Origin: Paenimyroides aestuarii
GTDB taxonomy: Bacteria; Bacteroidota; Bacteroidia; Flavobacteriales; Flavobacteriaceae
Direction of reading: 5' to 3'
NCBI RefSeq assembly: GCF_024628805.1
Contig: NZ_CP102382.1
Coordinates: forward strand, 930,001 to 994,000
DNA length: 64,000 bases
A program made the position numbers and the translations under genes. Position 1 is the stretch's first letter, and each line of letters begins with the position of its first letter. Positions 5,109 to 38,765 of the stretch are shown piece after piece. Under the pieces are notes generated by a model. That model searched no databases and had not been told where the DNA came from. It worked only from the letters and a program-made list of their open reading frames with translations.

Positions 5109-7070
5109 TTACATCTCCACGATAATAAACTCGGATCTACGGTTGGCTTGGTGTGCTTCTTCGCTACACTGCACTCCGTCGGCACATTCGTTGACTAATT
5201 GGCGCTCGCCATAGCCTTTCGATGTTAATCGTGACGAACTGATGCCTTGGTCAATCAACCATTCTCTAGTCGATTTTGCGCGGTTCTCAGACAATCTGTC
5301 GTTGTACTTGTGCGATGCACGGCTGTCGGTATGCGAACGGATGTCGATTTTCATCGTTGGATATTCTTCCAATACCGCCAATACTTTTGCCAGCTCTGCC
5401 GCTGCATCCGGACGGATGTTGTATTTGTCTAAATCAAAATAAATCGGATTCAGTTTTAATACTTTAAACAAGTCGTCGCCTACTTTTACAGGGGTTTTAG
5501 CTGGTTCCAAAACAATGGTGTGCTCGGTTACACCGCTTTCATTGGGCAAACGCACCACGTCTTCTTGGGTCGTATAGCCTTCTTTTTCCGCTTTTAAGCG
5601 GTAGGTTTCTCCACATTTGAATTCGTTGTTGAACACATAACCGCCGTTTTGATAGCGGTTGCTGCTTTCTAGTTCGCCGTACAAATTGTTGTACAACGTT
5701 ACGTTGGCATCGCTAATAATGTTGCGGGTTTTTGCATCGACTACTTTTAAAAGCAATTTTTGGATGCATTCTAGTTGCAACGGTTTGGTTTCATGGAAAC
5801 TGTAAATATCGTCGTTGCCGTTGCCGCCCTCACGGTTGCTTGAAAAGAAGCCTTGTTTGGTGTTTGGGTCGATATAATACGCAAAATCATCTGCATTTCC
5901 GTTGATTGGTGCTCCTACGTTGTGGATTTCCCCAGGTTGGCTGTTTCTGTCTAATTTTGTGGCATATACATCAAGTCCGCCTAGTCCTACTCTACCGTCG
6001 CTTGAAAAATACAATTCCCCACTTTCGGTTACAAACGGAAAGGTTTCTCTGCCTTCGGTGTTGATCCCCTCACCCATGTTTACAGGTCCGCCAAAAGCTC
6101 CTGAGGGATGAATTGCTACCTGCCACAAATCCGATTCGCCGAAGCCTCCCGGACGGTCGCTCGCAAAATACATTGTGGCTTCGTCTGGGCTTAAGGTGGG
6201 GTGTGCCGTGTTGTAGCCGTCCATATTGAACGGTAACTCGGTTATGTGCTCCCATTTGCCATCCACGTTTTCTGCACGGTAGATTTTAAGCTTCGTGTTT
6301 TTGTCGGCATCGTATTTACGGGTATGGTTGATGTAGTTGTTGCGTGTGAAATACATCGTGTTGCCGTCTTTGGTGATTACCGCTGTGGATTCGTTAAGTG
6401 GTGATTTTACCTTTCCTTTCAATCGGGTTACTTTATCATCTTTGCTTGCCGTTTCGGCTACGCTGTACAAGCTGGTAAAGGCATCGCCTGTCCAGGTGTG
6501 TTCGCGTTTGTGCAAGCTGCCCGTGTCGCGCGCGCTGGTAAAGTACAATTGGTTGTTGTGTACATAGCTTCCGTAATCGGAATAAGGCGTGTTGATCTCC
6601 AAGTTCTTGATTTGGTCGTAGCGACCTGAATTGGCTTGTATCTGCTTTTTAAGTTCGGCTTCGTTCTTGCGGATTTTAGAACGTTGCGTGTGGCTGCCGG
6701 CTTTGTTTACAAACTGGTCGTAATAGCGCTTTGATTCGCTTTCTTTGCCCACGTGTTGCAAGGTTTGGGCGTAGCGGTAATAGTACTCGCTGCCAATGTT
6801 TTCGCTGCCAAATTCTTTGAACAAGCGTTCGTAGTGCTTTTGGGCTTCGCCATAGCGTGCGTTAAAGTAGTAGGCGTTGCCTAACTTTTCTAGTACATCC
6901 TTCCCGGCATAGCCGCGGTTGGCTACTTTCTCGTAAATGCTGATTGCATCTACATAAGCCCATTGGTTGTAGTCTTTATCGGCTGTATTTAATCCCGCTT
7001 GTGCTTGTGCCCCCGTGTTCCCCAGCATAAAGGCGGTGAACAAAGCGGCTCTATATATCCCTTTTTTCAT
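5109..7070 (-). CDS. PorE-like TPR-PD40-CRD-OmpA protein, 653 aa (module A)
   Basis: The domain order matches the T9SS accessory protein PorE. There is a signal peptide (1-24), TPR-like helices (about 30-150, with GYAGKDVLEKLGNAYYFNAR), a PD40/WD40-like propeller (about 165-425, with repeated TMYFASDRPGGFGESDLW, LYFSSDGRVGLGGLDVY, GFFSSNREGGNGNDDIYSF), a carboxypeptidase-regulatory-like domain (about 435-530) and a C-terminal OmpA domain from 541. In the OmpA domain Asp582 (HTDSRAS) and Arg597 (SENRAKS) have the same 15-residue spacing as the two residues of E. coli OmpA that grip diaminopimelate. It should therefore bind peptidoglycan and tie an outer-membrane partner to the wall. It lies 12 bp after the PorP-like gene and before a strong terminator. 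The pairing with that barrel and its surface cargo is inferred from synteny seen three times here. Confidence 0.9.
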   Translation of the reverse strand: MKKGIYRAALFTAFMLGNTGAQAQAGLNTADKDYNQWAYVDAISIYEKVANRGYAGKDVLEKLGNAYYFNARYGEAQKHYERLFKEFGSENIGSEYYYRYAQTLQHVGKESESKRYYDQFVNKAGSHTQRSKIRKNEAELKKQIQANSGRYDQIKNLEINTPYSDYGSYVHNNQLYFTSARDTGSLHKREHTWTGDAFTSLYSVAETASKDDKVTRLKGKVKSPLNESTAVITKDGNTMYFTRNNYINHTRKYDADKNTKLKIYRAENVDGKWEHITELPFNMDGYNTAHPTLSPDEATMYFASDRPGGFGESDLWQVAIHPSGAFGGPVNMGEGINTEGRETFPFVTESGELYFSSDGRVGLGGLDVYATKLDRNSQPGEIHNVGAPINGNADDFAYYIDPNTKQGFFSSNREGGNGNDDIYSFHETKPLQLECIQKLLLKVVDAKTRNIISDANVTLYNNLYGELESSNRYQNGGYVFNNEFKCGETYRLKAEKEGYTTQEDVVRLPNESGVTEHTIVLEPAKTPVKVGDDLFKVLKLNPIYFDLDKYNIRPDAAAELAKVLAVLEEYPTMKIDIRSHTDSRASHKYNDRLSENRAKSTREWLIDQGISSSRLTSKGYGERQLVNECADGVQCSEEAHQANRRSEFIIVEM

Positions 7071-7082
7071 TTTTCTTTATTT

Positions 7083-8003
7083 TTAGAAGAAACGCGGCGA
7101 GTTCACGCGGCGGTATTTGTTAAACAATTCAAAGCGCATAAAAATCTCGTGTGAGCCGTTGTTGTAATTTCTCAAGGCTTTGATGTCGCTGTCGTAGCTA
7201 TAGCCTATAAACAATCCGTCGGTTACCTGGAAGCCTGCCAAGGCACTCCATGCGGCATCCCAGCGATAAGCGGCTCCTAAAGTAAACTTCTCGTTGATTA
7301 AGAAATTCCCTGTGATATCAGCTTGTAAAGGTGCGCCTTCTACTGCTTTTAACAAAAATGCCGGTTTAAACTTCAACATCGGGTTCAACTCAAATACGTG
7401 ACCTCCCATTAAATAATAGTGCATCTTTTGCTGCATCGTGCTTTGTACGTTGTCGTCGTAGCGCGTGGTTTCTAAAAAATGGGGTGCCGATAATCCTACA
7501 TACGTTTGTTCGTTATGCCAATAAACACCCGCTCCTATGTTTGGAGTGAATTGGTTGTTGATGTCTGTAAGGATCTGCGAATCGTTCGGGTTGTATTTGT
7601 TCAGCCTAGAATAAGCTACATTCAGCATATTGGCTGATCCTTTTAAGCCGAAGCTTAGCTTGCTGCCACGGTTGTTTAAATCTAAGGTGTACGAGAAATC
7701 TACACTTAACGTGTTTTCATCGGTCACCCCTAACCTGTCGTTTACAAAGCTTACTCCTAAACCTACTTTACTCTCGGCTATAGGGGTGTTTATGGAAAAC
7801 GAATTGGTCGTTGGTGCGCCTTCTAATCCTACCCATTGGCTGCGGTGCAAGCCAAAGATGCTCAAGGCGCCTCTGCTACCTGCATAAGCCGGGTTGATGT
7901 TGATCGTGTTGTACATGTAATTCGTGTACTGGGGGTCTTGTTGGGCGTTTGCCGAAATGCTTACCAAAGCTAACAAAGCCATTATCTTTTTTAATTGTTT
8001 CAT
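7083..8003 (-). CDS. PorP/SprF-family outer-membrane protein, 306 aa (module A)
   Basis: The signal peptide (MKQLKKIMALLALVSISANA) is followed by the family hallmark QQDPQYTNYMYNTININPAY and AGSRGALSIFGLHRSQWVGL. The rest alternates as amphipathic beta strands and ends in the family-typical EIFMRFELFNKYRRVNSPRFF, consistent with an outer-membrane beta-barrel. Members are known partners of T9SS substrates that carry type B (CHU_C) C-terminal domains, as SprF is for SprB in Flavobacterium johnsoniae. The gene sits 12 bp from both the CHU_C protein upstream and the PorE-like gene downstream. From the QQDPQ motif on it is nearly identical to 54621-55559, but the signal peptide differs. Confidence 0.92.
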   Translation of the reverse strand: MKQLKKIMALLALVSISANAQQDPQYTNYMYNTININPAYAGSRGALSIFGLHRSQWVGLEGAPTTNSFSINTPIAESKVGLGVSFVNDRLGVTDENTLSVDFSYTLDLNNRGSKLSFGLKGSANMLNVAYSRLNKYNPNDSQILTDINNQFTPNIGAGVYWHNEQTYVGLSAPHFLETTRYDDNVQSTMQQKMHYYLMGGHVFELNPMLKFKPAFLLKAVEGAPLQADITGNFLINEKFTLGAAYRWDAAWSALAGFQVTDGLFIGYSYDSDIKALRNYNNGSHEIFMRFELFNKYRRVNSPRFF

Positions 8004-8015
8004 TGCTTTTTAGTT

Positions 8016-9275
8016 TTAGTCGTTGTTTTCTAAGTGTAAATACCCTACTTTCTTAACCCATTGGCTTTCTCCATCGCGGTCGAATAAATATTCCACTACA
8101 TAATAGTAGGTTCCGCTTGGGAGTTTTTCGCCTTCGTTTACAATCGCATTGCCTTGTGCATAGCCACGGAACACGTTGCCGTTGCTGTCGTAGCTATGGG
8201 TTTCATATACTTTTCTTCCCCAACGGTTGTAAATGGTTACGTGGTTGTTTGGAAATTGGTTGATGTTGTCGATAATGAAGTAATCGTTCATGCCGTCGCC
8301 ATCGGGTGTTACCCCATTGTAGATTACTACTTCACCTGGGTTGATCAGTGCTTCTTTGATGGTGCCAAGGGTAAATATTCCAAAGCCATCTACATTTACA
8401 GGTGTGCTTACGGTTTGCTCGCCATAGTTTACCACACCGCCTTCATCTACCCACAATTTTTGGGTTTCGTCCCAACGTACCACGTGTAATAAATCAGGAT
8501 TTGCTGTTAACCATGCTGGGGTGGTGCGTGTATCCCATGAGAGGGTTACAACCACCGAATTATCGGTGTTTACGCTTTGGTTGATGATCCAATATTCTTG
8601 GTCGTCAATGGCTTTTATGACTCCGGTGCGGCTGGCATGCGGGTATTTGCTGTTGGAATTTTCCAATAGGTATTCGCCCGTGTAGATTTCTGCTTCTTGA
8701 ACGGGTGCTGATATGCCTGCAAAACGGTAATAACCTCCATCGCCAATAGGGTATTTAAACCCTTCGTTGCCCCGTTTGGTGACTTCGCCGTTTACGTGGC
8801 TGCGGTCGGAAGTATTGATGTGGTTCGCACCTTTTAAGAAGACAAATGCACCGCCATTGGCTTTATCCATCAACACCACTCCGTTTAAAAGATTTACGGT
8901 GCCGGCATTGGCAATGTCATTGGTTAAATGAAAACTGTGTTCTGCCCCGCTTTTGTTGAACAATACATCGTAAAAGCTACTGGGTGAGCTTCCTGAAATC
9001 TGTTGCATGCCCGGCATTAAGCCCTCAAATACCACATAGCCCGTGCGGCTGTTGGTTGTGTAACTGAACAAACCTTCGTTTTGGTAATCGCCGTAGAAAT
9101 AAAAATCGCCGTCGTTTAAAACATCGCCCGTTGATTCGTTCTTGAAATCAAAGTAGGTAGATACTTCCGTGCCCGGCTCTACTTTTAAAACGCCCTCGTT
9201 TACTGTTAATTCTGTTTGGGAGAAACTATTTATCCCTAAAAAAATAGACAGTGTGGTTATATATATTTTTTTCAT
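8016..9275 (-). CDS. CHU_C-domain surface protein, 419 aa; putative fibre anchor (module A)
   Basis: I choose the ATG at 9275 because it begins a proper signal peptide (MKKIYITTLSIFLGINSFSQ). An in-frame ATG at 9317 would add 14 unlikely residues. The middle (about 30-300) is beta-rich, with ILNDGDF-type blocks (GDVLNDGDFYFYGDYQNEGL) and FKYPIGDGGYYRFAGISAP. The last ~105 residues are a gliding-motility-associated/CHU_C type B domain: VVIYNGVTPDGDGMNDYF, VTIYNRWGRKVYETHSYDS, GTYYYVVEYLFDR. That domain should direct export through T9SS with a PorP/SprF partner, which is the very next gene. At 419 residues it is far smaller than SprB-like adhesins. I infer an anchor for the long head-domain proteins encoded upstream. 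The close paralogue is at 34327-35589. Confidence 0.85.
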   Translation of the reverse strand: MKKIYITTLSIFLGINSFSQTELTVNEGVLKVEPGTEVSTYFDFKNESTGDVLNDGDFYFYGDYQNEGLFSYTTNSRTGYVVFEGLMPGMQQISGSSPSSFYDVLFNKSGAEHSFHLTNDIANAGTVNLLNGVVLMDKANGGAFVFLKGANHINTSDRSHVNGEVTKRGNEGFKYPIGDGGYYRFAGISAPVQEAEIYTGEYLLENSNSKYPHASRTGVIKAIDDQEYWIINQSVNTDNSVVVTLSWDTRTTPAWLTANPDLLHVVRWDETQKLWVDEGGVVNYGEQTVSTPVNVDGFGIFTLGTIKEALINPGEVVIYNGVTPDGDGMNDYFIIDNINQFPNNHVTIYNRWGRKVYETHSYDSNGNVFRGYAQGNAIVNEGEKLPSGTYYYVVEYLFDRDGESQWVKKVGYLHLENND

Positions 9276-9343
9276 AAATTTTTCTTTATTGTAAATCTTT
9301 AAAAGATTGTTCAACAATTACTTCTATCAGGAAATCTTTTGAA

Positions 9344-9856
9344 TTATTTCCAATAATTCCAAACAGCTCCATCAAAAACAGCGACTGCGTTTCTCACCGT
9401 ATCATAACACATCATTCCAGGGTAAGGACTTTTAACTGTTAAATGCGGATTCATGACATGTGGCAAAACCAAAGCTTTATTAGCCGACTCTAGTACCAAA
9501 ACGCCATCAGCATCAGATTCTTTTGCGCCAATCACAGTTTTTTTACCGTTATCAACTGTTCCACTGTAAGGTACCAACGTAGTTGTATTTCCAGCCTCTG
9601 AAAGACTTACCCAAGCACCATTTTCAAACATTTTTACTTTTTTTTCAGTAAATCTGGCATCAAACAAAAAAGTTCCGTTTTCTGGTGTTGTAGGTAATGT
9701 TTCTACCGCTGGTAAAATAATCCCGTTTGTAGTTCCTTTTTTAAAATCTAACAATGCAGAGGCACTACTGGCTGTTTTTTCTTCGATGACCGTTTGTGCA
9801 TTTACATTGGAGTAGATACCTAAACTACTTATTGCTATTAAAAAATACTGTTTCAT
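9344..9856 (-). CDS. Small secreted head-domain protein, 170 aa
   Basis: After a signal peptide (MKQYFLIAISSLGIYSNVNA) the protein consists of two short head-domain-like units. The first is KGTTNGIILPAVETLPTTPE followed by GTFLFDARFTEKKVKMFENGAWVSL. The second is NKALVLPHVMNPHLTVKSPY followed by GMMCYDTVRNAVAVFDGAVWNYWK. These match the (K/N)G.(L/I)(L/I)P, G..vYd, v..Fdg..W pattern seen in the larger fibre-like proteins and at the C-terminus of the 1,628-residue protein directly upstream (11 bp gap). It could be a cap or adaptor subunit for those proteins; that is inference. Clear co-transcription with 9868-14754 and probably with the module A genes. Confidence 0.7.
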   Translation of the reverse strand: MKQYFLIAISSLGIYSNVNAQTVIEEKTASSASALLDFKKGTTNGIILPAVETLPTTPENGTFLFDARFTEKKVKMFENGAWVSLSEAGNTTTLVPYSGTVDNGKKTVIGAKESDADGVLVLESANKALVLPHVMNPHLTVKSPYPGMMCYDTVRNAVAVFDGAVWNYWK

Positions 9857-9867: not shown

Positions 9868-12800
9868 TTAATTAGTTGGAAAACTACAATCTTTCTCAAT
9901 ACACTTCCAAATTGATCCATCGAACAATTTCACACAATTGTCTTGCAGATCATAAACAATCATCCCTTCAACAGGTGCCGTAATGGAATCAGTTGTGAGG
10001 TTTGGAGTGCCGTTTGTACCTCCTACATGGTTTACACGTGAAATAACAAAACCTTTACTTCTAGACTCTACTGCTATAAAACCATTAGGTACATTTCCTG
10101 GCCAGCCTGTTGTTCCACCATTAAATCCTAGAATATCAGAAATACCTGTTTTTGTAAAACTATCAGCTGGATTGGTATTAGGGTCTTCATAGCAACCTCC
10201 TGGTCCTGAAATAATAAATATTCCATCTTCAACTTCTCCACCAAAAACAGAACCGGTAGGCAAAGTAATATCCGAAGCGTTTCGTGCAATTCTTAATCGG
10301 AAATATGTACTTCCTGCAGAAATTCCAGAAATTCCTGTCCATGTAAGAGAAACACTTGTTGCTCCATTGGCAACTGTAACCGAAGTTGACTCAGCAGCTT
10401 CAAAAGTTCCATTTTTATTAAAGTCGATCCAACCTCTTAGCGTTGCTGCAAGTCCGGTAGTATTAGTAACCGGAATCGTTGCTGTGTATGCTGTAGCATT
10501 ACTGTATAATATTGGCCAAGTTACACTGTTTTCGTCATTGATATTGTTAGTGTCATCTCCATTGGCATTGGTATTTGGAAAACCATCATTCTCTAAATCT
10601 ATGTTAGAACCAATCATAAGAGATGCTGTGTTATTAGTTGCGTCATACTGAGACACTGTATGACGAGGTCCGTTTGATGCCAATAATGTTTTATAGGTAT
10701 CTGGTGCATCTCCAAAATCTGAAACAGCGAACGGGTTTAAAGGTGTAGCACAGCTTGCTAAATCTCCTTGAGCTCCTGCTGGTGTTATCGTACCAATCGA
10801 TGAAATACTAAAATCATTATTCATTCTAAACAATGTTGTCGCATTGGTAATAAACAATTCTCCTGCTGGACTGAATGAAATTCCATTTGGACCATTTCCT
10901 ATATCTTGTTTAGCTATTTGTTCTAATACCAAAGGTGTACTTCCCATATTGGTTGTAGGCACTGCACTCTTTATTCTGAAAACATAAGCAGTTGGCGCAA
11001 AAGCAGTCCCGGATAATATCCACAAGTCGCCATTACCGTCCATGGCAATATCTCCGCCCGTATAAGTAGCTAAAACAGTATTTAGTGATTGTCCGTTTTG
11101 ATCTACATAGTTACTTGTAATATCTGTCCAAGTGTTATTTGCGATATTATAATATTTCAAAACATTGCTTGACGTAATTCCATAATAACCTGTACCATCA
11201 TTGGTTACTGTTCCTCTGTAAATAAGTCCCGTAGTACTAGCCAAGTTTTGATAAGCTCCTGTAATAGGATCATAACTTACAAAAATATTACTTCCTGAAG
11301 GACCTCCGTTTTGGCTCAATACATAATAAAACTTTTTTGTCACATCACTGAACCCTAATGCATTTGCTCCATTGGGTGCTGCTGGAACCGATGTAGGATG
11401 TGGAGTCGTATTGATTACCGCTCCCAAAGCTCCGGTTGTGGTATCAAAAACCCTTATTTCACCTGTATTTGCACTTAGACTATATGTTTTATTGGTACAA
11501 TCATAGGGAGGTACAACGGTTATCGTAACTACATTGGAAATAGCCGTACAACCACCTGCACTGGTTACAACCGCACGATAGTATCTTGTGGCTGTTAATG
11601 CTCCTGGGCTGTAAGAAGCAGTTGTACCACCAGTTGCTACATTTGTAAATGTTACATTATCCGTTGACACTTGCCATTGAATGCTTCCTGTAGATCCCGC
11701 TAATGTTAAGGCGGTTGGGATAGATCCAGAAGCAATGGTTTGATTGGCTGTGGCTGTACCAGCAACTGCAGCAGGATTTACAGTCTGCGATTGATTAACT
11801 GTTTGTCCACTCGCTTGTGAATAGCCTGTAATTGCAGGTGTTGCTGTTGGCAACGCTGGCACACCACTCGAATTTACGGTGGTATTTAATCTATTTCCTG
11901 AAATATAACTTGCTCCTGCCTGAAAATTAGCGCCGCCTTCAATAACATCAGGACAACCATCACCATCTGAATCTAAATCTAAATAATTTGGGATACCATC
12001 CCCATCAGTGTCGCAAACAGTGAGTAAATCCTCAGATCCGTATGCTATGTTGAATACATTCGTTCCAAAATTTGCACTTCCTTCATTTACCCAATTTGGC
12101 GTAGCCGATGTAGGATTAGAAGAAGAATATACTCTGGTTCTATTCGCTAATGTTTCTGTAGCAGTACCTGAAGAAGAATAATACATAAAGTAATATACGC
12201 CATCATGAACCGCCATATCTACCAACGCATAGTTTCTGCCTCCATCAGCGAAAGTAAGTGCTAAACCAGTTAATGTTCCCATATTAGTCCAGCTATTTGT
12301 GACAGGATCGGTAGAAGAATACAATACCGGAGTACCTGAATTATTGAACCAATGATAAAAAACACCATTATCATACCCTAGGTTTTTTTGACCACCTCCC
12401 ACATTTGCATTTCCAAGATCGGTAAAGGTTCCTGTAGTAATATTATTGGTATAAAGTAGTCTCCCCGCACTGTTAATTACGTAAAACTTACCATCGTCAT
12501 AGGCTAAATTTGTTGTAGCGGTGATATTGTTTGCTACTGTATAAGGAACGCCACCATTTGTAGGACAACCAGTTCCTGCAGGGCAAACATATGTTGTTCC
12601 CACTCCATCTGTCTGCTTATATAACCACAGCCCATCCGTTGTATTAGATGCTGTACCATCAAATAAATGATAGAGTGGCTCGTTATTAATTGTTGGACAC
12701 TCATCTATATCTAAAATACCGTCGTTGTCATCATCTAAGTCACATGCATCTGCAATACCATCACTGTCAGAGTCAGGGTTGGCCGCAGAAGGAGTACAAG

Positions 12801-14754
12801 GATTTATAACTACCGTTATAGTTACTTGCGCTGTATCGCAAGGAGTTCCTGAAGTCTGGTTACAAATGGTGTAATTCATTGTATATGTTCCCGCAGCTAC
12901 TGTTGAGGCTACTGAAATAGTTCCATTTGCATTTAGTGTAAATCCTGCTGGCCAAGTTCCTGATGTTGCAATGGATACTTGTCCTGCTGAAATACCAATT
13001 ACTGCGGGATTTCCTGCATTGTTAATGTCATTTACAATAACACTTGCTGTTGCACTTCCAGGAGCAACATTGGTGTAGGTATCTTCCACAGCATTTACTA
13101 AATTACAAGTCTCCGATTGAAATGTTTCTGTGATTGTTCTCACGGGGCAAGTGCCTGCTGGTGTTTGGTAGGTAATTGTAGCAGTGCCTGCGCTTGTAAA
13201 CTTAACTTTATAACCTGTTGTGGCATTTCCTGTAATGGTTACTGGCCCTGTGCTCGCTGTAACTGTACCGCCAGTAGGTATAGCAACCAGATCAAATTCA
13301 ACATTTACACAAAATTTCCCGGTACTTCCTTTAATTTGAGGCTCTAAGGTAATATTTGGAACAGAAGAAGCACAAATTGGGACATAGGCTGTATTGAAAG
13401 TAAAGCTGGTTTCATCTGTATCAGTACCACCACCAGCACCCATAGATCCATCAATACGGTGTCCTACATATCCAAAATTGGTTTGGCATTGTTCGGTAAT
13501 CATAGTGGTGTGACCGCCTGTATGTACAGAAGTAACAATACTACTTACAGTTAATCCATTAGGAATACCCGGATTCACTGCACCATCCGATGTTCCTCTT
13601 CCAAGCATACTTCCGTCATTATATCCCCAATTGTATAATTGATTCGAATTATTGATCACATTGATACCGGCATATCTTCCGTCGTGTTCATTAGGGCTAA
13701 TCCATTTGATGTTGTTCATCACTGGTCCTGTAGATGATGTATATCTTGGCTGAATCCAAGTTCTTCTTTCGGATGTTGACCAATCACCTAATTGTCTGTA
13801 ATCATTAAATCCCATCGAGTACAAATTGCCATCAGTCATTAAAATATAATATGCAGACTCTTGTAATGTTGAAGAATTTGTACTTGGTGTTATACCTATC
13901 ATTTTAATGGTTCCTGATGGAATAGTCATTTGTGTTGCTCTAGATCTGGCAGCTGCAGCGGTATTGTTCCCTAAGTATGAAGTTTCACCCCAAGTCCAAA
14001 CGGTTCCATCGCTTTTTAGTGCCATAGCAGTACCACCAGCTACCCTTGCAACAATAACATTAGTTAAATTAGTAGTGCTCGTTTGTTGAACTCTATACCA
14101 AGTAGTTGCATTTCCTGCATTTCCATTTCCTCTCATTTCAGGATTTGCCGACATAACCCATACATCTCCACTACAAGTTACTAGACATAATGTTCCTATT
14201 TGTGTACTACCTCTTCTTATAGTCCCGGTAAGCATTTTTACATCAGTAGGAGAAACACCAGTTGGTAGCCCATCTGCTTTTCCATTAACACTTATCTTTT
14301 GAAATGTAGTACTTGTAGTAAATGACCCATCAATTATTCTACCTTCTGTACCCCAAACATATAAACCATTAGAGGCTAGTGCTACAAATGATTGATTATT
14401 TGAACCACCGGAAGCACCAGTAACTTTATACACTTTTGCATTACCAAGTGCAGGAAAATTGGTTCCATTAATTGTGATTGGACTTAATACATTGTCTGTT
14501 CCATTGTTCGCCATATTTTGTCCCCAAACTTTAAAAGTTCCATCGTACTGCCTTACAGCAGTACCGTGATAAGCAGAGGTATAGTTATCATATTCTATGG
14601 TTGCAGCATTGTTTGTAGAATTAACAAAGGCATTGTTGTAATCGGTGTTGCTACAGCCTTCTCCTGCCACAAAACCACATTGTGCAAAGGAACTATTGCC
14701 AAAGCAAACAATGGAAAGAAATACTAATAAATATGTGAAGTAGTTTTTTGTCAT
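9868..14754 (-). CDS. Giant secreted RCC1/TSP3/GEVED surface protein, 1,628 aa
   Basis: The signal peptide ends at NSSFAQ. Residues about 40-430 carry RCC1-type repeats (FKVWGQNMANNG, LYVWGTEGRIIDG, TVWTWGETSYLGNNT, LYSMGFNDYRQLGDW, LYNWGYNDGSMLGRGT), which should fold as a beta-propeller. Calcium-type thrombospondin-3 repeats follow in two places (DSDSDGIADACDLDDDNDG and DTDGDGIPNYLDLDSDGDGC). There is an Ig-like domain (IQWQVSTDNVTFTNVATGG), a second propeller-like region (about 1090-1350) and a GEVED domain (about 1380-1530, VSDFGDAPDTYKTL to GEVEDGIFI). The last ~70 residues are a head-type domain (SRSKGFVISRVN, PVEGMIVYDLQDNCVKLFDG). There is no CHU_C or Por-type sorting domain. Its head-type domain is at the C-terminus, opposite to the fibre proteins, so it may form a fibre tip or joint; this is inferred. 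Confidence 0.85.
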   Translation of the reverse strand: MTKNYFTYLLVFLSIVCFGNSSFAQCGFVAGEGCSNTDYNNAFVNSTNNAATIEYDNYTSAYHGTAVRQYDGTFKVWGQNMANNGTDNVLSPITINGTNFPALGNAKVYKVTGASGGSNNQSFVALASNGLYVWGTEGRIIDGSFTTSTTFQKISVNGKADGLPTGVSPTDVKMLTGTIRRGSTQIGTLCLVTCSGDVWVMSANPEMRGNGNAGNATTWYRVQQTSTTNLTNVIVARVAGGTAMALKSDGTVWTWGETSYLGNNTAAAARSRATQMTIPSGTIKMIGITPSTNSSTLQESAYYILMTDGNLYSMGFNDYRQLGDWSTSERRTWIQPRYTSSTGPVMNNIKWISPNEHDGRYAGINVINNSNQLYNWGYNDGSMLGRGTSDGAVNPGIPNGLTVSSIVTSVHTGGHTTMITEQCQTNFGYVGHRIDGSMGAGGGTDTDETSFTFNTAYVPICASSVPNITLEPQIKGSTGKFCVNVEFDLVAIPTGGTVTASTGPVTITGNATTGYKVKFTSAGTATITYQTPAGTCPVRTITETFQSETCNLVNAVEDTYTNVAPGSATASVIVNDINNAGNPAVIGISAGQVSIATSGTWPAGFTLNANGTISVASTVAAGTYTMNYTICNQTSGTPCDTAQVTITVVINPCTPSAANPDSDSDGIADACDLDDDNDGILDIDECPTINNEPLYHLFDGTASNTTDGLWLYKQTDGVGTTYVCPAGTGCPTNGGVPYTVANNITATTNLAYDDGKFYVINSAGRLLYTNNITTGTFTDLGNANVGGGQKNLGYDNGVFYHWFNNSGTPVLYSSTDPVTNSWTNMGTLTGLALTFADGGRNYALVDMAVHDGVYYFMYYSSSGTATETLANRTRVYSSSNPTSATPNWVNEGSANFGTNVFNIAYGSEDLLTVCDTDGDGIPNYLDLDSDGDGCPDVIEGGANFQAGASYISGNRLNTTVNSSGVPALPTATPAITGYSQASGQTVNQSQTVNPAAVAGTATANQTIASGSIPTALTLAGSTGSIQWQVSTDNVTFTNVATGGTTASYSPGALTATRYYRAVVTSAGGCTAISNVVTITVVPPYDCTNKTYSLSANTGEIRVFDTTTGALGAVINTTPHPTSVPAAPNGANALGFSDVTKKFYYVLSQNGGPSGSNIFVSYDPITGAYQNLASTTGLIYRGTVTNDGTGYYGITSSNVLKYYNIANNTWTDITSNYVDQNGQSLNTVLATYTGGDIAMDGNGDLWILSGTAFAPTAYVFRIKSAVPTTNMGSTPLVLEQIAKQDIGNGPNGISFSPAGELFITNATTLFRMNNDFSISSIGTITPAGAQGDLASCATPLNPFAVSDFGDAPDTYKTLLASNGPRHTVSQYDATNNTASLMIGSNIDLENDGFPNTNANGDDTNNINDENSVTWPILYSNATAYTATIPVTNTTGLAATLRGWIDFNKNGTFEAAESTSVTVANGATSVSLTWTGISGISAGSTYFRLRIARNASDITLPTGSVFGGEVEDGIFIISGPGGCYEDPNTNPADSFTKTGISDILGFNGGTTGWPGNVPNGFIAVESRSKGFVISRVNHVGGTNGTPNLTTDSITAPVEGMIVYDLQDNCVKLFDGSIWKCIEKDCSFPTN

Positions 14755-14821: not shown

Positions 14822-14827
14822 ACATAA

Positions 14828-24020: not shown

Positions 24021-24439
24021 ATCGCCTACTACGTCTACTGTTAAGGTTTCCCCGTTGGCATTTGTAAAGGTGTAGGTTCGTCGTTATTGTTAACCATATC
24101 CAAAGTGTTCGCATCAAAGGTCATTACCGTTCCGTCTACTGCTGTGTGCGTGAAGGTTCCGTCGCCGTTGTCTACAAATAGATCGCTCTCTTGTTCTAAG
24201 ATGTTGATGATCTCACTATAGATATCGCCTTGGTTTTGGATGTTTGTTACCACATCGCCTACTACATCTACTGTTAAGGTTTCCCCGTTGGCATTTGTAA
24301 AGGTGTAGGTTCCGTCGTTATTGTTAACCATATCCAAAGTGTTCGCATCAAAGGTCATTACCGTTCCGTCTACTGCTGTGTGCGTGAAGGTTCCGTCGCC
24401 GTTGTCTACAAATAGATCGCTCTCTTGTTCTAAGATGTT
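17653..24439. repeat. 29 tandem 234-bp repeats (78 codons), mosaic
   Basis: The marker ttgatgatctcacta recurs every 234 bp from 17653 to 24438, which gives exactly 29 periods once one missing base is restored. Three two-state sites vary among units: GDIY or GAIY, DLFV or DIFR, and LTMGKNT or LDMVNNN. Counting from the N-terminus, DIFR occurs in units 4, 7, 9, 11, 13, 15 and 23, always with GDIY. Units 8-15 form a four-unit (936-bp) higher-order repeat present twice. Synonymous markers (tacgtct/tacatct, accgct/actgct) also segregate by block. The pattern shows repeated unequal exchange or gene conversion. Confidence 0.97.
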
Positions 24440-25033
24440 GATGATCTCACTATAGATATCGCCTTGGTTTTGGATGTTTGTTACCACATTTCCAACTACA
24501 TCTATTAAAACAGCTCCTGGAGGCACACTTGTCCACGTAGAAACATCTGCTGAACCGCCATTTAAAATATATTCTTCAGAAAGGTAATATTGATTACCTT
24601 GATAAGTAACTATATTAGTTGGAATATTAATTGCTGACAGAGGAACAGTAACTGTATTCCCATCACTATCTGTAAGTACTAAATCTCCGTTTATAACAGT
24701 TAAGGTAGTGTTTGTTGTATTTTTATCTAATGCAATAACATCAGACTCATTTACAATACGCATCCATTTATCAATATACCAATAGTAATAACCTGGTTGT
24801 ATATCGTTTTCGTTATTGGTATTAAATACCAACAAACTATTCACATTACCATTTTGAATGGTAGTTGCATCTGTTGTTGAAGATAACGCTACCCTTGGTA
24901 TGAGAACCCCTTTTTTATCTGATGTTACATCTAATTGTGAAGAGGAATTTGGATTCAACGTTCCAATACCTACCTGACTATAAGCGTTGATACCAAATAA
25001 CAATAATGATACTGAAAGTAATTTTCTATTCAT
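24041..25033 (-). CDS. 29-unit repeat surface protein, N-terminal part, truncated by a 1-nt frameshift
   Basis: The true start is at 25033, with a signal peptide (MNRKLLSVSLLLFGINAYSQ) followed by the head domain (QVGIGTLNPNSSSQLDVTSD, KKGVLIPRVALSSTTDAT, SLLVFNTNNENDIQPGYYYW, DKWMRIVNE). A linker with NQYYLSEEYILNGG leads into repeat units 1 and 2. In unit 2 the sequence ggttcgtcg replaces the ggttccgtcg found in all other units, so one C is missing at about 24079. The frame then ends in NNDEPTPLQMPTGKP at 24041. Restoring the base makes 17208-25033 a single frame of 2,608 residues (7,827 nt, divisible by three). Either an assembly error in a long repeat or a real switch-off mutation could explain this. 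Confidence 0.85.
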   Translation of the reverse strand: MNRKLLSVSLLLFGINAYSQVGIGTLNPNSSSQLDVTSDKKGVLIPRVALSSTTDATTIQNGNVNSLLVFNTNNENDIQPGYYYWYIDKWMRIVNESDVIALDKNTTNTTLTVINGDLVLTDSDGNTVTVPLSAINIPTNIVTYQGNQYYLSEEYILNGGSADVSTWTSVPPGAVLIDVVGNVVTNIQNQGDIYSEIINILEQESDLFVDNGDGTFTHTAVDGTVMTFDANTLDMVNNNDGTYTFTNANGETLTVDVVGDVVTNIQNQGDIYSEIINILEQESDLFVDNGDGTFTHTAVDGTVMTFDANTLDMVNNNDEPTPLQMPTGKP

Positions 25034-28059: not shown

Positions 28060-28089
28060 TTTGTGGTATTAAATTTATTCGTAAATTTG
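28060..28089 (+). promoter_or_regulatory. Bacteroidota-type promoter on the plus strand
   Basis: TTTG at 28060-28063 and TAAATTTG at 28082-28089 are separated by 18 nt, matching the TTTG / TAnnTTTG consensus. Transcription should start near 28094-28097 and run into the terminator at 28118-28155 about 25 nt later. Confidence 0.6.
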
Positions 28090-28094
28090 GATTT

Positions 28095-28155: not shown

Positions 28156-28244
28156 ATTCACTCTGCCCCATATTGAAACGCTTGGAATGTTTGATAAATT
28201 GAATTAATTACAGAAATTTGTAATACAACAAAACAACATATACT

Positions 28245-28562: not shown

Positions 28563-28565
28563 TTT

Positions 28566-33394: not shown

Positions 33395-34315
33395 TTAGAA
33401 GAAACGCGACGTGTTGATACGGCGATACTTGTTAAACAATTCAAATCTTAAGAAAACCTCATGCGATCCGTTGTTGTAATTCGCTAACTTAGTAGTTTCA
33501 CCATCATAGCTGTAACCTATAAACAAACCGTCGGTAGCTTGAAAACCTACCAAGCCGCTCCAAGCCGCATCCCAACGATAGGCTCCACCAATTGTAAATT
33601 TGTTACTAATTAAGAAATTGGCTGTGATATCTGCTTGTAAGGGTGCTCCGTTTGTTGCTTTAACCAAAAATGCCGGTTTAAGTTTAAGCATGGGATTCAA
33701 CTCAAAAACGTGTCCGCCAATGAAATAGTACGTCATTTTGGTCCGCATCGTACTTTGCATATTATCATCATAACGAGTTGTTTCTAAAAAATTGGGTACA
33801 GAAAGCCCTAAATAGCTTTTTTCATTATGCCAATAAACGCCGGCACCTATATTCGGTGTAAATTGTCCGCTGATATCGTTTTGAAAATTAGGGTCGTTCG
33901 GATTGTATGTCAATAACTTGGAATAAGCTACATTGAGCATATTACCTGATCCTTTAATACCGAATGAAAATTTACTACCGCGGCTGTTTAAATCAATCGT
34001 ATATGATAAATCTACACTTACCGTATTTTCGTCCATAATTCCTAATCCATCATTAATAAAACCTATTCCTAACCCCAACTTACTATCTCCTAAGGGCGTA
34101 TTTACAGAGAAGGCGTTTGTTTTTGGTGCACCTTCTAAACCCACCCATTGTGTGCGGTGCAAACCAAAAATACTTAACGAACCACGGCTGCCGGCATAAG
34201 CAGGATTAATGTTTACCGTGTTATACATATATTGCGTAAATTGTGGATCTTGTTGTGCGTTGGCAGAGAAGCTTACTAAAGCTAACAAAGCCCCTATGAT
34301 TTTTAATCTCTTCAT
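33395..34315 (-). CDS. PorP/SprF-family outer-membrane protein, 306 aa (module B)
   Basis: The signal peptide (MKRLKIIGALLALVSFSANA) resembles that of module A rather than that of module C. The hallmark QQDPQFTQYMYNTVNINPAY and AGSRGSLSIFGLHRTQWVGL follows, and the protein ends EVFLRFELFNKYRRINTSRFF. It should form a beta-barrel that works with the T9SS to present the CHU_C protein encoded 11 bp upstream (34327-35589). Its length equals that of the module A barrel, and the two align over their whole length without large gaps by eye. Confidence 0.92.
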   Translation of the reverse strand: MKRLKIIGALLALVSFSANAQQDPQFTQYMYNTVNINPAYAGSRGSLSIFGLHRTQWVGLEGAPKTNAFSVNTPLGDSKLGLGIGFINDGLGIMDENTVSVDLSYTIDLNSRGSKFSFGIKGSGNMLNVAYSKLLTYNPNDPNFQNDISGQFTPNIGAGVYWHNEKSYLGLSVPNFLETTRYDDNMQSTMRTKMTYYFIGGHVFELNPMLKLKPAFLVKATNGAPLQADITANFLISNKFTIGGAYRWDAAWSGLVGFQATDGLFIGYSYDGETTKLANYNNGSHEVFLRFELFNKYRRINTSRFF

Positions 34316-34326: not shown

Positions 34327-35589
34327 TTAGTTTTGATTTTCGAGGTGAATATATCCCACTTTCTTAATCCATTGATTTTCTCCATTGCGATTGTACAAGT
34401 ATTCCACCACATAATAATAGGTTCCGATAGGTAGTTTTTCCCCACCGCCCACAATTCCATTGCCTTCGGCGATGCCAACAAATACATTGTTTTTACTGTT
34501 ATAGTTTTTGGTTTCGTACACTTTACGCCCCCAACGATTGTAAAGAATGACTTGATTATCCGGAAAATGCTCGATATTATCAATGATTAAATAATCGTTG
34601 ATTCCGTCACCGTCAGGAGAAACACCATTATAAACAACTACATCTCCTGGGTTTAAGAACTTCTCTTTGATTTTTCCCAGTGTAAATATTCCGAAGCCAT
34701 CTACCTGAACGGGAGTGGTCACTGTTTTTGCAGTTTTATCAACAATTCCGCCTTCATCTACCCAAAGGTTTTGAGCTGCATCCCAACGAACTATATGCAA
34801 GTCTTGTGTTCCGTGAAATTCTGCTGGCGTGGTTTGATCGTGCCATGAAAGCGTAACCATTACCGAACCTGTTGTTCCTGAAGATGGATTGATTGTCCAA
34901 TATTCTTGATTGTTTACAGCAGAAATAATTCCTGTTCGGTCTTTGTGAGGATATGTTTGATTGGTGTTCTCTATAAAATACTCGCTCATATAGCTATGAT
35001 CTTCATTTGTAGGAGCTGAAATTCCTGCCAAACGATAGAATCCCGATTTACCAATGGGAAAAGTAAAGGCATTGTTACCTTGCTTTTCTACCATTCCTTC
35101 GGCATAACTTCGGTCGCTAGCATTCATTTGCGAAGCTCCATTGCCAAATAATAGTTGCCCACCAACAGTTTTGTTGATACGAACAATGCCTTCTATAAAG
35201 TTCCCTACCCCATCAATAATCATATCGCTGTTCAAATTAAATGAATACGGTGTGGAGGCATTATTAAAAAGCACATCAAAATGTTTTGATGGTTGCGAAC
35301 CACTTATTGTTTGTTGCTGACTGCCTTGAAAAACTGTGTAACCTGTATTTTGGTTTGTTGAGTGGGTAAACAAGCCGTCGTTATTATAATTCTTATAGAA
35401 CTGAAATTCCCCGTCGTTAAAAATTATTCCCGATGTTTTATTTTCAAAATCAAACTGTGTAGAAATTACCGTATTGGGCAACACATACAATTCGCCGTGA
35501 TTTACCATGATATTCTCTGAAGACTGCGCATATATTGCAGAACTAATGGGAATAAAAAGCAAACCTATATTTATAAAAGTTTTTTTCAT
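34327..35589 (-). CDS. CHU_C-domain surface protein, 420 aa; putative fibre anchor (module B)
   Basis: A signal peptide (MKKTFINIGLLFIPISSAIY, then AQ) leads to a beta-rich region parallel to the module A protein (FENKTSGIIFNDGEFQFYKN, FTFPIGKSGFYRLAGISAPT). The final ~105 residues are a type B gliding/CHU_C domain (VVVYNGVSPDGDGINDYL, VILYNRWGRKVYETKNYNSK, GTYYYVVEYLYNRNG). It is the same length as the 8016-9275 product. In both modules the gene order is head-domain fibre genes, this gene, barrel, PorE-like. Export by T9SS is well supported by the domain; anchoring of the fibre proteins is inferred. Confidence 0.87.
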   Translation of the reverse strand: MKKTFINIGLLFIPISSAIYAQSSENIMVNHGELYVLPNTVISTQFDFENKTSGIIFNDGEFQFYKNYNNDGLFTHSTNQNTGYTVFQGSQQQTISGSQPSKHFDVLFNNASTPYSFNLNSDMIIDGVGNFIEGIVRINKTVGGQLLFGNGASQMNASDRSYAEGMVEKQGNNAFTFPIGKSGFYRLAGISAPTNEDHSYMSEYFIENTNQTYPHKDRTGIISAVNNQEYWTINPSSGTTGSVMVTLSWHDQTTPAEFHGTQDLHIVRWDAAQNLWVDEGGIVDKTAKTVTTPVQVDGFGIFTLGKIKEKFLNPGDVVVYNGVSPDGDGINDYLIIDNIEHFPDNQVILYNRWGRKVYETKNYNSKNNVFVGIAEGNGIVGGGEKLPIGTYYYVVEYLYNRNGENQWIKKVGYIHLENQN

Positions 35590-35675: not shown

Positions 35676-36710
35676 CTATAAGTCAGATATTTTGTAAATA
35701 TGAATAGAAACTTTACCATCTGTTAAAAGACCTAAATCTAATACAGAACCTTGCGCACCAAATGAAATTAAATCTCCTGCTGTTAATGTGTGTAGCGTAT
35801 TTATAGAGGTAGAGGTCACAGGAACAGAAGCTAAGGTAATTCCTAAAATAGAAACCCGCACGGCGTCAACCATCTTTTGTTCCAAAAGCGTATTATTTTT
35901 TAAAACAGCAAGATTTCTTCCTCCAAGAAGTCCTAAATCAACTCCGCCTTCCAATTGCACTTCAAAATTGATAGCGTATATTCCCGTTGAAGGCACAGTA
36001 TAATTTCCATTACTAAACAGTGCAGAATTTCCCAACTTTGTATCACTTGTTTGCAAGTTGATTTTAGACCAATTAGTTCCTCCTATGGTTAGACCTAATA
36101 AACTCCAAGCTCCGTCGTTTTCAGCTCGGTAAACGGTCGTATTTCTTGTTTTGGCAAAATCGCTTGCGTTTGCTGTTTTTAGAATGCCTGTTGCGTCTTG
36201 TAAAAGAACTTTATCGCTAGGTAATTGTGCAGCAGTTGTTGCTGGCAAACCCGTAACTTTCAACTTTCCTGTAATACCGGTAGCTGTAGTGGCAATGGTT
36301 AAATCATTGTTTGGAGTAGTGGTAATTGTTGTTGATGTTGCTAAACTACCACCTAAAGCAATATTATTGCCAGTTTTGGTTAAACCATTATTTGCTGTTA
36401 TTACTGCGGGAATATCCGTACTATTTGCAATTCTGCTCCATTTGCTACCGTCGTTATAATATTGACCTGGAACCACATCATTTATTGTGGCGGTATTATA
36501 AACAGTCATACCTTGAACATGTGCCGATAGTGGTGCAAAAGAGGTTGTGGATGTTAATGCAACGCGGGGTAGCAAAACACCTTTGTTAGTTGCCTCTACT
36601 TCTAACATGGCATTGGGGTTTGGTGTGCCATCTGTTCCTCCAATTTTTACTTGCGCCGATGCTAAAGCGCTAAATAACACAGCTGATAAAAAGATAATTT
36701 TATTATTCAT
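35676..36710 (-). CDS. Head-domain protein with C1q-like C-terminus, 344 aa
   Basis: The signal peptide ends ALASA. The head domain occupies about residues 20-100 (QVKIGGTDGTPNPNAMLEVE, NKGVLLPRVALTSTTSFAPL, GMTVYNTATINDVVPGQYYN, GSKWSRIANS). A tail-fibre-like linker (LTKTGNNIALGGSLATSTTI) leads to about 150 C-terminal residues that look like a C1q/TNF jelly roll: NYTVPSTGIYAINFEVQLEG, NNTLLEQKM, TLHTLTAGDLISFGAQGS and the final GKVSIHIYKI. C1q-like domains are usually trimeric and sit at fibre tips. It is encoded 86 bp upstream of the module B anchor gene and after a terminator, so it may start the module B operon. Confidence 0.78.
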   Translation of the reverse strand: MNNKIIFLSAVLFSALASAQVKIGGTDGTPNPNAMLEVEATNKGVLLPRVALTSTTSFAPLSAHVQGMTVYNTATINDVVPGQYYNDGSKWSRIANSTDIPAVITANNGLTKTGNNIALGGSLATSTTITTTPNNDLTIATTATGITGKLKVTGLPATTAAQLPSDKVLLQDATGILKTANASDFAKTRNTTVYRAENDGAWSLLGLTIGGTNWSKINLQTSDTKLGNSALFSNGNYTVPSTGIYAINFEVQLEGGVDLGLLGGRNLAVLKNNTLLEQKMVDAVRVSILGITLASVPVTSTSINTLHTLTAGDLISFGAQGSVLDLGLLTDGKVSIHIYKISDL

Positions 36711-36759: not shown

Positions 36760-36770
36760 GATTTAAAAAA

Positions 36771-38765
36771 TTATTGGGCAGAGAATTCTACAACTGCTTT
36801 TACGTTTAAGTTTGAGGTACTCAAAACATTATACATATTACCTGTTCCAATTTTAAATGATAAATTGTTTCCAGTTAAAGCAATATCAGTTGTAGAAGTA
36901 TTTATTAGGCTGTTATCAGTGTTCAGCAATTTAATGCTAACTATTTTTCCAATGGTTGTTCCTGCGGCTGGTATAATCGTAATTGTGGATACATTCGCTG
37001 TATTTCCAGTAACAGTAGCAGCATAGACTCCTGTGTAAATTTTACCACCATCAATCCATGTATCGCCCGTATTTACAACAGTTGATTCATTATAAACATC
37101 CCCTAATTGATTTTTAATTTCTTGTTTTTGAACTGCTGTAGCATTGGTAATTGCATTTACAATTGTTTGGGCTATATCAACCAATTCCTTCACCCCCGTA
37201 GTATTGTTTATAGTATAAAATGAAAATGCAGGAATTGTCAATTGACCTGCGGGAGTTCCTGCTGCAATCTCTGTTCTTGTAAAATAAACGTTTCCACCTT
37301 CATTTAATAAGTTGTTTACAATATCTTCAATTGCATTTTGCACATCTGTATTATTCTCAATTGACCATTCTACATCAGCGGTCACATCCATATAATTTTT
37401 AATGGTTGCATTCTCTGTTAGGTATTCATAAACCACCTTTTGAGCTGCCTTTGGATCTGCAGTAACCTGCACATATGCTGAATTATTAGTACTTTTTGCA
37501 AGCGTTGTTAGGCTTTCATTAGCTTTTACAATATCGGAGAAAGCTGTTGCTGGAACTGCCTGAGGTGTACCCGAAGCATCGATGATATTAAACATGATAT
37601 TTCCTCCTGTGATTGATGCTGTAACGATTCCTTCTGGCAGATCGGTATTGTCAATCATTTCTTGAATATATTGCACTAATGTTGTGGATGTGGAGCCACT
37701 AAAGCTGGTGGATGCGTTAATAATGGTATCTAAATTTTGTACAACAGCTGTTGGTATATTGATTGTAACATCTACACCCGCTTCATTCTTGTAGGTATAA
37801 GTAGCATTAGCACCGGCAGTTAAGGTAGTAATTGTTTCATTTGATTTTACGATTGTACTAAAAGCTGTATTGGGAACAGTTACCCAAGTGGTTCCGTTCC
37901 ATTGTTCAAAAGAGGCTTGATTTGGTGTAACACTTGTATCGATTACAATTCGGGTTTCACCAGTTTTTGTAACATTTTCAGATATATACTCGATATATTC
38001 TTCAACAGTAGAATAATTTGTTCCACCACCACCAACAGTGCTATTTATAAATTCATTAAAGTTGTTTACCACACCACCAATAACATCAATTTGATAAACA
38101 CCAGTTTCGGTTCCAGTTACGGGGTCGGCAGTTCCCGTATAACTTTCAGAAACGTAGTACTGTTTATTGTTTATTGTAACAATTTTTGTTTTAGATTCAT
38201 TTCCTTTAATTATAGCAATAATGTCGGTGGTAATATCTTTTTTGGTATAATTTGTTCCATCAAAGTAAACATATTCAATAGTAGGATTTGTTCCAGGAGT
38301 AAAAACCATGCCTCCTCCGAACGTATCACCTGTTACAGCAGGATCAACCAAATTATTTGCCGGAAAAGCTACTTTTAAAAGATTGATAATTTTATTCAGA
38401 TCGGCTTGCACATCAGTAATATTTGAAATAGCTTCGTCTAACTGTGATTGGTTAACTATTCGTTCCCAATGTGCAGTTGTAGTACCATTTTGAATGGTCC
38501 AATAATAAAACCCGGGCGAAACAGCAGTACTACCCGTACCCGAATTGGCTGTATTATAAACCAAAAGACTTTCGATTTCGGTTCCTGTGACTCCACTAAA
38601 AGAATCGGTTTCCGTTAATGAAACTCTCGGTATTAAAACTCCTTTATCTGAAGATTTAATCTCTAACATGGTGGATGAAGCAGGTTCAGAAGTTCCTATA
38701 CCTACTTGAGCATTTGCGAAATAAGCAGACCCACATAAGGCCGCCAACATAGTAATTTTTCTCAT
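36771..38765 (-). CDS. Head-domain fibre protein with degenerate repeats, 664 aa
   Basis: After a signal peptide (to FANA) comes the head domain (QVGIGTSEPASSTMLEIKSS, DKGVLIPRVSLTETDSFSGV, SLLVYNTANSG, SPGFYYWTI). The shaft region holds degenerate copies of the unit found perfectly repeated in the 2,608-residue protein. One segment (ATYTYKNEAGVDVTINIPTA then VVQNLDTIINAS) parallels GTYTFTNANGETLTVDVVGD and VVTNIQNQG. NKQYYVSESYTGTADP parallels NQYYLSEEYILNGG. The last 100 residues are a beta-rich cap (STDIALTGNNLSFKIGTGN, LNVKAVVEFSAQ). No sorting domain is present. It is the first gene of locus B, so both loci begin with a member of this family. Confidence 0.8.
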   Translation of the reverse strand: MRKITMLAALCGSAYFANAQVGIGTSEPASSTMLEIKSSDKGVLIPRVSLTETDSFSGVTGTEIESLLVYNTANSGTGSTAVSPGFYYWTIQNGTTTAHWERIVNQSQLDEAISNITDVQADLNKIINLLKVAFPANNLVDPAVTGDTFGGGMVFTPGTNPTIEYVYFDGTNYTKKDITTDIIAIIKGNESKTKIVTINNKQYYVSESYTGTADPVTGTETGVYQIDVIGGVVNNFNEFINSTVGGGGTNYSTVEEYIEYISENVTKTGETRIVIDTSVTPNQASFEQWNGTTWVTVPNTAFSTIVKSNETITTLTAGANATYTYKNEAGVDVTINIPTAVVQNLDTIINASTSFSGSTSTTLVQYIQEMIDNTDLPEGIVTASITGGNIMFNIIDASGTPQAVPATAFSDIVKANESLTTLAKSTNNSAYVQVTADPKAAQKVVYEYLTENATIKNYMDVTADVEWSIENNTDVQNAIEDIVNNLLNEGGNVYFTRTEIAAGTPAGQLTIPAFSFYTINNTTGVKELVDIAQTIVNAITNATAVQKQEIKNQLGDVYNESTVVNTGDTWIDGGKIYTGVYAATVTGNTANVSTITIIPAAGTTIGKIVSIKLLNTDNSLINTSTTDIALTGNNLSFKIGTGNMYNVLSTSNLNVKAVVEFSAQ

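Follow-up and report, generated by a model that had tools for sequence, protein, structure and literature searches.

Recurring cassettes of head-domain fibre genes and a small CHU_C anchor gene in Paenimyroides aestuarii and its relatives: a candidate split surface adhesin

Two cassettes and the head domain of their fibres

The window analysed here, the whole 64,000-nucleotide stretch G000:C1:930001-994000 of the one-contig, 2.96-Mb genome of Paenimyroides aestuarii, holds two gene cassettes, both on the minus strand, in which genes for fibre-like proteins with a shared head domain precede genes for a small protein with a CHU_C-type C-terminal domain (CTD), a PorP/SprF barrel and a PorE-like protein (Table 1). 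Cassette 1, from 25033 to 5109, encodes in order a giant repeat fibre, a 759-residue fibre, a 1,628-residue protein with a C-terminal head, a double-head protein, the small CHU_C protein, PorP and the PorE-like protein, and is followed by a strong terminator-like hairpin; cassette 2, from 38765 to 31416, encodes two fibres, the small CHU_C protein, PorP and the PorE-like protein. A preliminary description of this DNA, made from its letters alone, had proposed that both loci run from head-fibre genes through a gene for a ~420-residue CHU_C protein to PorP and PorE-like genes; Pfam matches agree with this order, and a third cassette (CHU_C, PorP, PorE-like, three fibres) was added from outside the window, at G000:C1:880-889 kb.

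Table 1. Features of the cassettes and of the adjoining unit (window coordinates; aa, residues)
Position	Strand	Feature	Evidence
425..3022	-	CTD-less protein, 865 aa, C-terminal TNPM tail	fits TNPM motif
3025..3507	-	160-aa product, encoded between the fibre and the TNPM-tail protein	position
3510..4667	-	fibre, 385 aa: N-terminal head and FCD	head 118 bits; FCD alignment; FCD pLDDT mostly 75-96
5042..5076	-	terminator-like hairpin 3' of PorE-like gene	15 pairs, T tail; 1 found vs shuffle mean 0.2
5109..7070	-	PorE-like: weak TPR, PD40, OmpA	OmpA E 4e-18; NCBIfam T9SS_PorE 318 bits, cut-off 600
7083..8003	-	PorP/SprF barrel	PF11751 E 4e-90
8016..9317	-	small CHU_C adaptor, 433 aa as listed (419 from internal ATG)	PF13585 E 4e-25; TIGR04131 38.0 bits, cut-off 35
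9344..9856	-	double-head protein, 170 aa	two head matches
9868..14754	-	large CTD-less protein, 1,628 aa: RCC1, GEVED, TSP3 below cut-off, C-terminal head	Pfam and head model
14828..17107	-	fibre, 759 aa: N-terminal head, YadA-type beta-roll-like repeats and C-terminal coiled coil (both by eye)	head 87 bits
17208..24020	-	remainder of giant fibre gene: stalk of 78-residue repeats, C-terminal region	TRF, reading frames
24041..25033	-	5' piece of giant fibre gene, with signal peptide, N-terminal head and initial repeats	head 129 bits
31416..33383	-	PorE-like protein	OmpA E 2e-17, PD40
33395..34315	-	PorP/SprF barrel	PF11751 E 2e-87
34327..35589	-	small CHU_C adaptor, 420 aa: beta-helix, ZU5/GAIN-like sandwich, type B CTD	PF13585 E 2e-22; model pLDDT 86.7; fold matches
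35676..36710	-	fibre, 344 aa: N-terminal head, weak C1q/BclA-like C-terminus	head 114 bits; BclA_C E 5e-5, below cut-off
36771..38765	-	fibre, 664 aa, N-terminal head	head 114 bits

A type B CTD, an adjoining PorP/SprF gene and an adjoining PorE-type gene are all present in both window cassettes, OmpA and PD40 scoring above their cut-offs and the TPR being weak; because the product of 5109-7070 falls below the NCBIfam T9SS_PorE cut-off, it is called PorE-like rather than PorE. The nearest named protein relatives of the window's small CHU_C proteins, among the 120 listed, come from Flavobacterium sp. CBA20B-1, Paenimyroides and Myroides. In the model of 34327-35589, residues 165-308 have a fold like that of the GAIN/FIIND/ZU5 group, some members of which self-cleave. 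A variant adaptor in another genome (L127:12999-15002) has, by eye, TSP3-like repeats between its N-domain and its CTD, with two head genes alongside.

The head, of ~90 residues, is present in five window proteins and is doubled or C-terminal in two more. Each of the five N-terminal heads named in the preliminary description was recovered at E <1e-20 by a leave-one-out profile built from the other four (3510-4667, E 2.7e-33; 14828-17107, E 1.8e-22; 24041-25033, E 2.7e-31; 35676-36710, E 9.7e-22; 36771-38765, E 2.6e-27), and the sole additional open reading frame (ORF) of the window listed by these profiles was 9344-9856, once, at E 8e-4. What had been described there as a shortened head proves to be a tandem pair (40 and 27 bits), and the C-terminus of 9868-14754, also described as a head, is matched at E 7.1e-23 by a model made from the C-terminal heads of four relatives; over 40 columns this model can in turn be aligned with the N-terminal heads (hhalign probability 92%). 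The precomputed Pfam column assigns the head to PF26696 in 36771-38765 and in all 120 listed rows; a Pfam library scan of the window proteins returned no match to PF26696, the accession being known from the precomputed assignments alone. Heads are found N-terminal, C-terminal or doubled, a variability of position that would be expected of a docking module rather than of a fixed export signal.

Neither a sorting domain nor an outer-membrane barrel had been noticed in the fibre proteins, and our scans agree: the head-bearing proteins of the window have no CHU_C, Por_Secre_tail or YadA anchor match (Pfam, with NCBIfam for six of the eight head and partner proteins), none of 211 head ORFs in the scanned loci (near-copies included) has a CHU_C domain, and NCBIfam finds no sorting domain in seven fibre or partner proteins of relatives. 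The stalks and tips of window proteins and relatives include types that form trimers elsewhere, namely collagen, YadA head, tail collar and, weakly, C1q-like, and for 14828-17107 PHROG gives matches to tail-spike and virion proteins (best E 1e-9).

One head product does not exist as first described. The 24041-25033 product, taken as a stand-alone protein, is the 5' piece of a single gene that continues in 17208-24020, the frame being broken between the two ORFs and inside an array of 234-bp repeats (TRF: 29.3 copies, 96% match, 17649-24504). The break could reflect phase variation or decay, or the repeat could have been misassembled. An Oceanihabitans fibre fragment (L062:3-1850) contains the 78-residue stalk repeat of the giant fibre nearly unchanged, by eye.

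Recurrence of the cassette

A head profile run against the whole genome gave 11 matches at E 0.01, 8 of which exceed 90 bits, and all 8 of these strong heads lie within 10 kb of one of the three small CHU_C genes; for the head at 954,707 the CHU_C gene of its own cassette is ~15 kb away, the nearer one being that of cassette 2. The stretches of 17 kb on either side of the three small CHU_C genes cover 3.4% of the genome, and each of the three weak matches is at least 49 kb from such a gene. At 1.85 Mb (L014:3428-5758), likewise far from small CHU_C genes, three small tandem proteins, two of them with weak head matches, have ends that by eye look C1q-like. Of the seven PorP genes in the genome, the three that adjoin small CHU_C genes are the only ones with a strong head at 16 kb or less (0/4 for the others).

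The small CHU_C proteins have 633 relatives at E 1e-3, mostly about 420 residues long among the 120 listed. For the relatives' loci we used a profile from 18 small CHU_C proteins and took the best 80 of 539 matches in named genomes, 63 of which had the whole protein (L067, a partial match, was excluded); PorP and PorE-like genes outside the window were sought with profiles from three window proteins each, which may miss distant ones. Heads are present in 47 of the 63 loci, PorP in 56 and a PorE-like gene in 54, and the genes are mostly co-directional, so the earlier claim that these four kinds of gene recur together holds. Ten of the 16 headless loci have fibre or partner tails, mostly where the contig or the examined stretch stops, and at L036 a head lies just past the examined stretch (L141). 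Sixteen control loci, where the CHU_C domain belongs to some other protein (in many cases a large adhesin), all lack heads, in spite of PorP in 16/16 and PorE-like genes in 15/16; the difference from the small-CHU_C loci is significant (Fisher p = 2.8e-8), although the CTD protein often fills the upstream flank of these control loci and 0/16 therefore overstates it. Across 199 genomes of the family, and among the matches listed, small CHU_C proteins occur in 18, heads (E 1e-20 or better) in 52 and both in 15 (Fisher p = 1.4e-7).

Closely similar anchors stand beside different fibres. Window 5109-9246 is 98.9% identical to cassette 3 over 4.1 kb, the sole other DNA match between the surroundings of cassettes 1 and 3 being a 236-bp head stretch at 69%; the DNA of cassette 2 is just 68% identical. 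Similarly, window 5028-7945, which covers the PorE-like gene and most of PorP, is 98.8% identical to 52566-55483, located beside a large, unrelated HYR adhesin, and this identity between fibre-cassette and HYR-locus anchors points to recent gene conversion or copying. The HYR adhesin (55646-57526, within window 55566-57649) has its CHU_C domain split across two reading frames, so that this type B protein too is apparently frame-broken. In Algibacter, loci L055 and L056 encode identical CHU_C proteins with different partners. Strain xlx-214 has eight heads, five in two cassettes and three in a fibre set (L139) that adjoins genes resembling the suf genes near cassette 3 of the source genome, and one of its anchors (L021) has no recognised fibres alongside. 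The simplest reading of these sequences would be that one portable anchor can serve, in cis or in trans, fibres that are interchangeable.

Other ends of the fibre and partner proteins are conserved as well. Fibres in many cassettes share a C-terminal domain of ~110 residues, FCD, with a final string like MNIVFVVK, and large CTD-less proteins near the CHU_C gene bear a TNPM tail, (T/S/V)NPM(I/L)..K.K or a variant. In its wide form the TNPM pattern fits 29/136 upstream ORFs of at least 400 residues and 1/235 others (namely window 425-3022), and in a stricter form 11/171 against 0/798; it weakens these counts that TNPM and the other tail motifs were defined on the same loci. Two later xlx-214 loci carry TNPM by eye, another locus of that strain having helped to define it. 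A different tail, RHGKxF...EQPM, closes the large CTD-less proteins encoded immediately upstream of the small CHU_C gene at L054, L061 and L064. In an alternative set, found in the window and at L019, L037, L043 and L076, the large protein has a half head at its C-terminus, and the next gene, beside that for CHU_C, encodes a double-head protein. These partner kinds cluster on a tree of the CHU_C proteins (74 rows, 15 without a partner type; L026, L042, L078, L126, L128, L130 and L132, near-copies or cut, were excluded).

As to the neighbouring genes, the hairpin behind the PorE-like gene at 5076-5042 implies that 3510-4667 probably belongs to a separate, second unit (4667-3510, 3507-3025, 3022-425) without an anchor of its own. 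An ORF of 161-184 residues takes a position equivalent to that of 3025-3507 at L020, L051, L055 and L068 (among the listed output), a likeness of size and place, and 425-3022 has no Pfam or NCBIfam match. Downstream of this unit, beyond the window, are genes that by eye resemble insertion-sequence (IS) transposases. Two histidine kinase/LuxR pairs and one ECF sigma factor are encoded between cassettes 1 and 2 (25186-30602), and regulators of the LuxR or AraC type are likewise found next to cassettes L012, L018 and L031.

A proposed split adhesin and its rivals

A possible explanation for this arrangement, to which we give slightly better than even chances, is that the cassettes encode a split surface adhesin: a small CHU_C base exported by the type IX secretion system (T9SS) and tied to the wall, on which CTD-less fibres dock. 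The small CHU_C protein, with its predicted beta-helix, ZU5/GAIN-like sandwich and type B CTD, would leave through the T9SS, be held by its cognate PorP and be linked to the wall by the PorE-like protein, acting as a base rather than as an adhesin. The reaching parts would be separate, Sec-exported proteins without a CTD. Among these, the fibres are probably trimeric, with the conserved N-terminal head cell-proximal and with exchangeable stalks and tips, and the large partner proteins have either a head or a TNPM tail at the C-terminus; docking would be the task of the heads and of these tails. Docking, trimer state and adhesion are what we infer from these features. If docking is generic, fibre sets could therefore be swapped on near-identical anchors and might be served in trans.

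Export by a type B CTD, PorP binding and the static PorE tie are carried over from published work on relatives. Substrates are targeted to the translocon via the CTD (PMC10994853); secretion of type B CTD fusions, when these are overproduced, requires the cognate PorP-like partner (PMC9143113, PMC12618676); PG1035 binds PorP and PorE at the surface (PMC9143113); and Fjoh_3952, which forms a unit with PorP and PorE-like neighbours, appears as static foci (PMC12618676). The published PorE-PorP-PG1035 complex (PMC9143113, PMC12618676) makes the CHU_C protein plausible as a static anchor. The weak point of the proposal is export of the fibres: since T9SS substrates are targeted by the CTD (PMC10994853), CTD-less fibres need either carriage by the adaptor or another route, perhaps that of the head proteins found without anchors, and we saw no precedent for adaptor carriage of CTD-less fibres in the literature examined. 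A loose lipobox pattern occurs in five of 71 strong heads, and those five might conceivably be exported as surface lipoproteins.

The rival that survives best takes the small CHU_C protein for a static adhesin in its own right and the fibres for further adhesins, exported and held by a route of their own, the cassette being shared because all are expressed for a common task. We consider this unlikely, though well worth keeping in view, and several of the observations that weigh against docking speak for it. Among the matches listed, 37 of the 52 head-bearing genomes lack a small CHU_C protein. None of 20 orphan head loci (20 genomes, 11 to 20 kb each), hand-picked for the strongest listed heads in genomes without small CHU_C, some on short contigs being skipped, contains a PorP, PorE-like or CHU_C gene, nor do five further ones (L097-L101); many orphan head proteins have 250-500 residues, and several stand in tandem. 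The idea that heads belong with anchors thus stood for most small-CHU_C loci and failed for the orphans: anchor-free heads are common, and the head must therefore be a module more widely used in the order, with at least one other role. In the preliminary interpretation, accordingly, the recurring cassette, the lack of CHU_C on head proteins and a plausible static anchor remain, and the confinement of heads to anchors does not; its suggestion that fibres are carried by the CHU_C protein, or polymerise on it, is conjectural.

Anchors without heads weigh in the same direction. In 16 further family genomes (of the 18 with small CHU_C), one small-CHU_C locus each, a head was nearby in only eight, at L133 on the opposite strand; four others show fibre, TNPM or RHGK tails, and L134, L136, L137 and L138 have no recognised partner, two of these four also lacking PorP and PorE. 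Several of these genomes are fragmented, and some of the loci begin at a contig end. Because half of the 16 loci have no head, we give docking less weight, and neighbours without contact more, than we otherwise would. Likewise, L021 is an anchor without recognised partner, at L029 the CHU_C gene has neither partner nor PorP/PorE within 10 kb on each side, fibres without PorP or PorE occur at L023, L026, L066 and L070, and the xlx-214 set L139 has no anchor in its 18 kb.

Against this rival stand the link of heads to small CHU_C genes and not to PorP/PorE in general, and the dedicated ends (C-terminal head, double head, TNPM tail) conserved near the CHU_C gene. Cassette heads, moreover, group separately from orphan ones: on a tree of 164 heads the cassette and orphan labels need 18 changes, against a shuffled mean of 53, but only three are forced by strong branches (L139 heads excluded; near-copies inflate the separation). 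Cassette heads are therefore mostly, not strictly, a set of their own, possibly a specialised docking form.

A second rival, which strikes us as rather improbable, makes the head a mere trimer-forming cap or folding nucleus and places docking in the FCD, the stalk or the TNPM protein. Heads do stand on many unrelated fibres, and AF2 confidence in the head is fair only around residues 70-100; the poor model of a fibre as a monomer (pLDDT 60) also counts against our proposal. Yet tandem heads in a ~180-residue protein and a C-terminal half-head in a 1,628-residue protein misfit a purely N-terminal cap.

In favour of fibres that are periplasmic or wall-facing, with only the CHU_C protein outside, speak the Sec signal without a recognised sorting domain and a residue|Q site before the head in 71/71 strong heads of the scanned loci (simple pattern). 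Collagen, tail collar, YadA head and weak C1q-like modules are, in contrast, extracellular fibre types, and a repeat stalk gene of ~2,600 codons (across the break) would be hard to fit in the periplasm; we regard this arrangement as quite improbable. Descent from a decayed prophage or phage-like tail fibres, suggested by tail-collar and tail-spike matches and by eight IMG/VR contigs (L142-L149) that encode distant head relatives at 39-44% identity, was already disfavoured and has very little left to recommend it, given the signal peptides, the operons shared with T9SS genes and the fact that inspection of the loci by eye showed no virion genes.

Whether the split adhesin extends to a rule is a more tentative matter. 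That, throughout the Bacteroidota, CTD-less trimeric fibres either pass the outer membrane as passengers of a dedicated small type B adaptor or are captured by it on the outside, via a portable docking head or a ~10-residue C-terminal TNPM tail, is possible, and we would sooner bet against it than for it. Under such a rule the type IX repertoire would exceed the set of CTD proteins.

Comparison with known systems

Type IX substrates are identified by their C-terminal domain. If CTD-less fibres are displayed on a small adaptor, CTD-based predictions of surface proteomes overlook a class of long adhesive fibres, and the swapping of fibres on near-identical anchors would change adhesion with the export machinery unchanged.

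Several known fibres resemble parts of the cassettes. Trimeric autotransporters form the YadA class, type Vc; the likeness lies in YadA-head repeats in some head or cassette proteins (in relatives; the repeats of 14828-17107 look YadA-like by eye only), and the difference in that no window protein has a YadA anchor barrel match (Pfam). The C-terminus of GhpA, the grappling hook of Aureispira (PDB 9flp), matches the adaptor CTD at E 1.8e-5, but GhpA is a single chain of 5,898 residues with its own CTD, whereas in the cassettes the base is one protein and the fibre another. The collar, tail-spike and beta-helix resemblances bring to mind the tail fibres and tailspikes of phages; unlike these, the proteins described here would be Sec-exported cell proteins encoded in T9SS cassettes.

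The base is already known. PorE-PorP-PG1035 of Porphyromonas gingivalis and Fjoh_3950-3952 of Flavobacterium johnsoniae also combine a type B CTD protein, a PorP/SprF protein and a PorE-like OmpA protein (PMC9143113, PMC12618676), the three F. johnsoniae genes being encoded together, with static wall-tied anchoring proposed (PMC12618676). PG1035 is small too, at about 50 kDa, and its CTD type, partners and size liken it to our adaptor (PMC9143113). In the accessible portions of these papers, however, the CTD protein itself is taken as the adhesin or cap, and no CTD-less fibre partners are mentioned (PMC9143113, PMC12618676); the split form was not found described in the open literature searched.

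A parallel in layout is offered by the mosaic adhesive trimer (MAT) fibres of Bdellovibrio, a member of another phylum. These are trimeric, with an invariant predicted N-terminal domain that is cell-proximal and with variable tips, and according to their authors it is yet to be identified which surface element binds the N-terminus (PMC10769870). Here, by contrast, a candidate surface element is genetically linked to the fibres, and the small CHU_C protein thereby becomes a concrete candidate, accessible to genetics, for the factor that keeps fibres of the MAT kind at the surface by their invariant N-terminus (PMC10769870).

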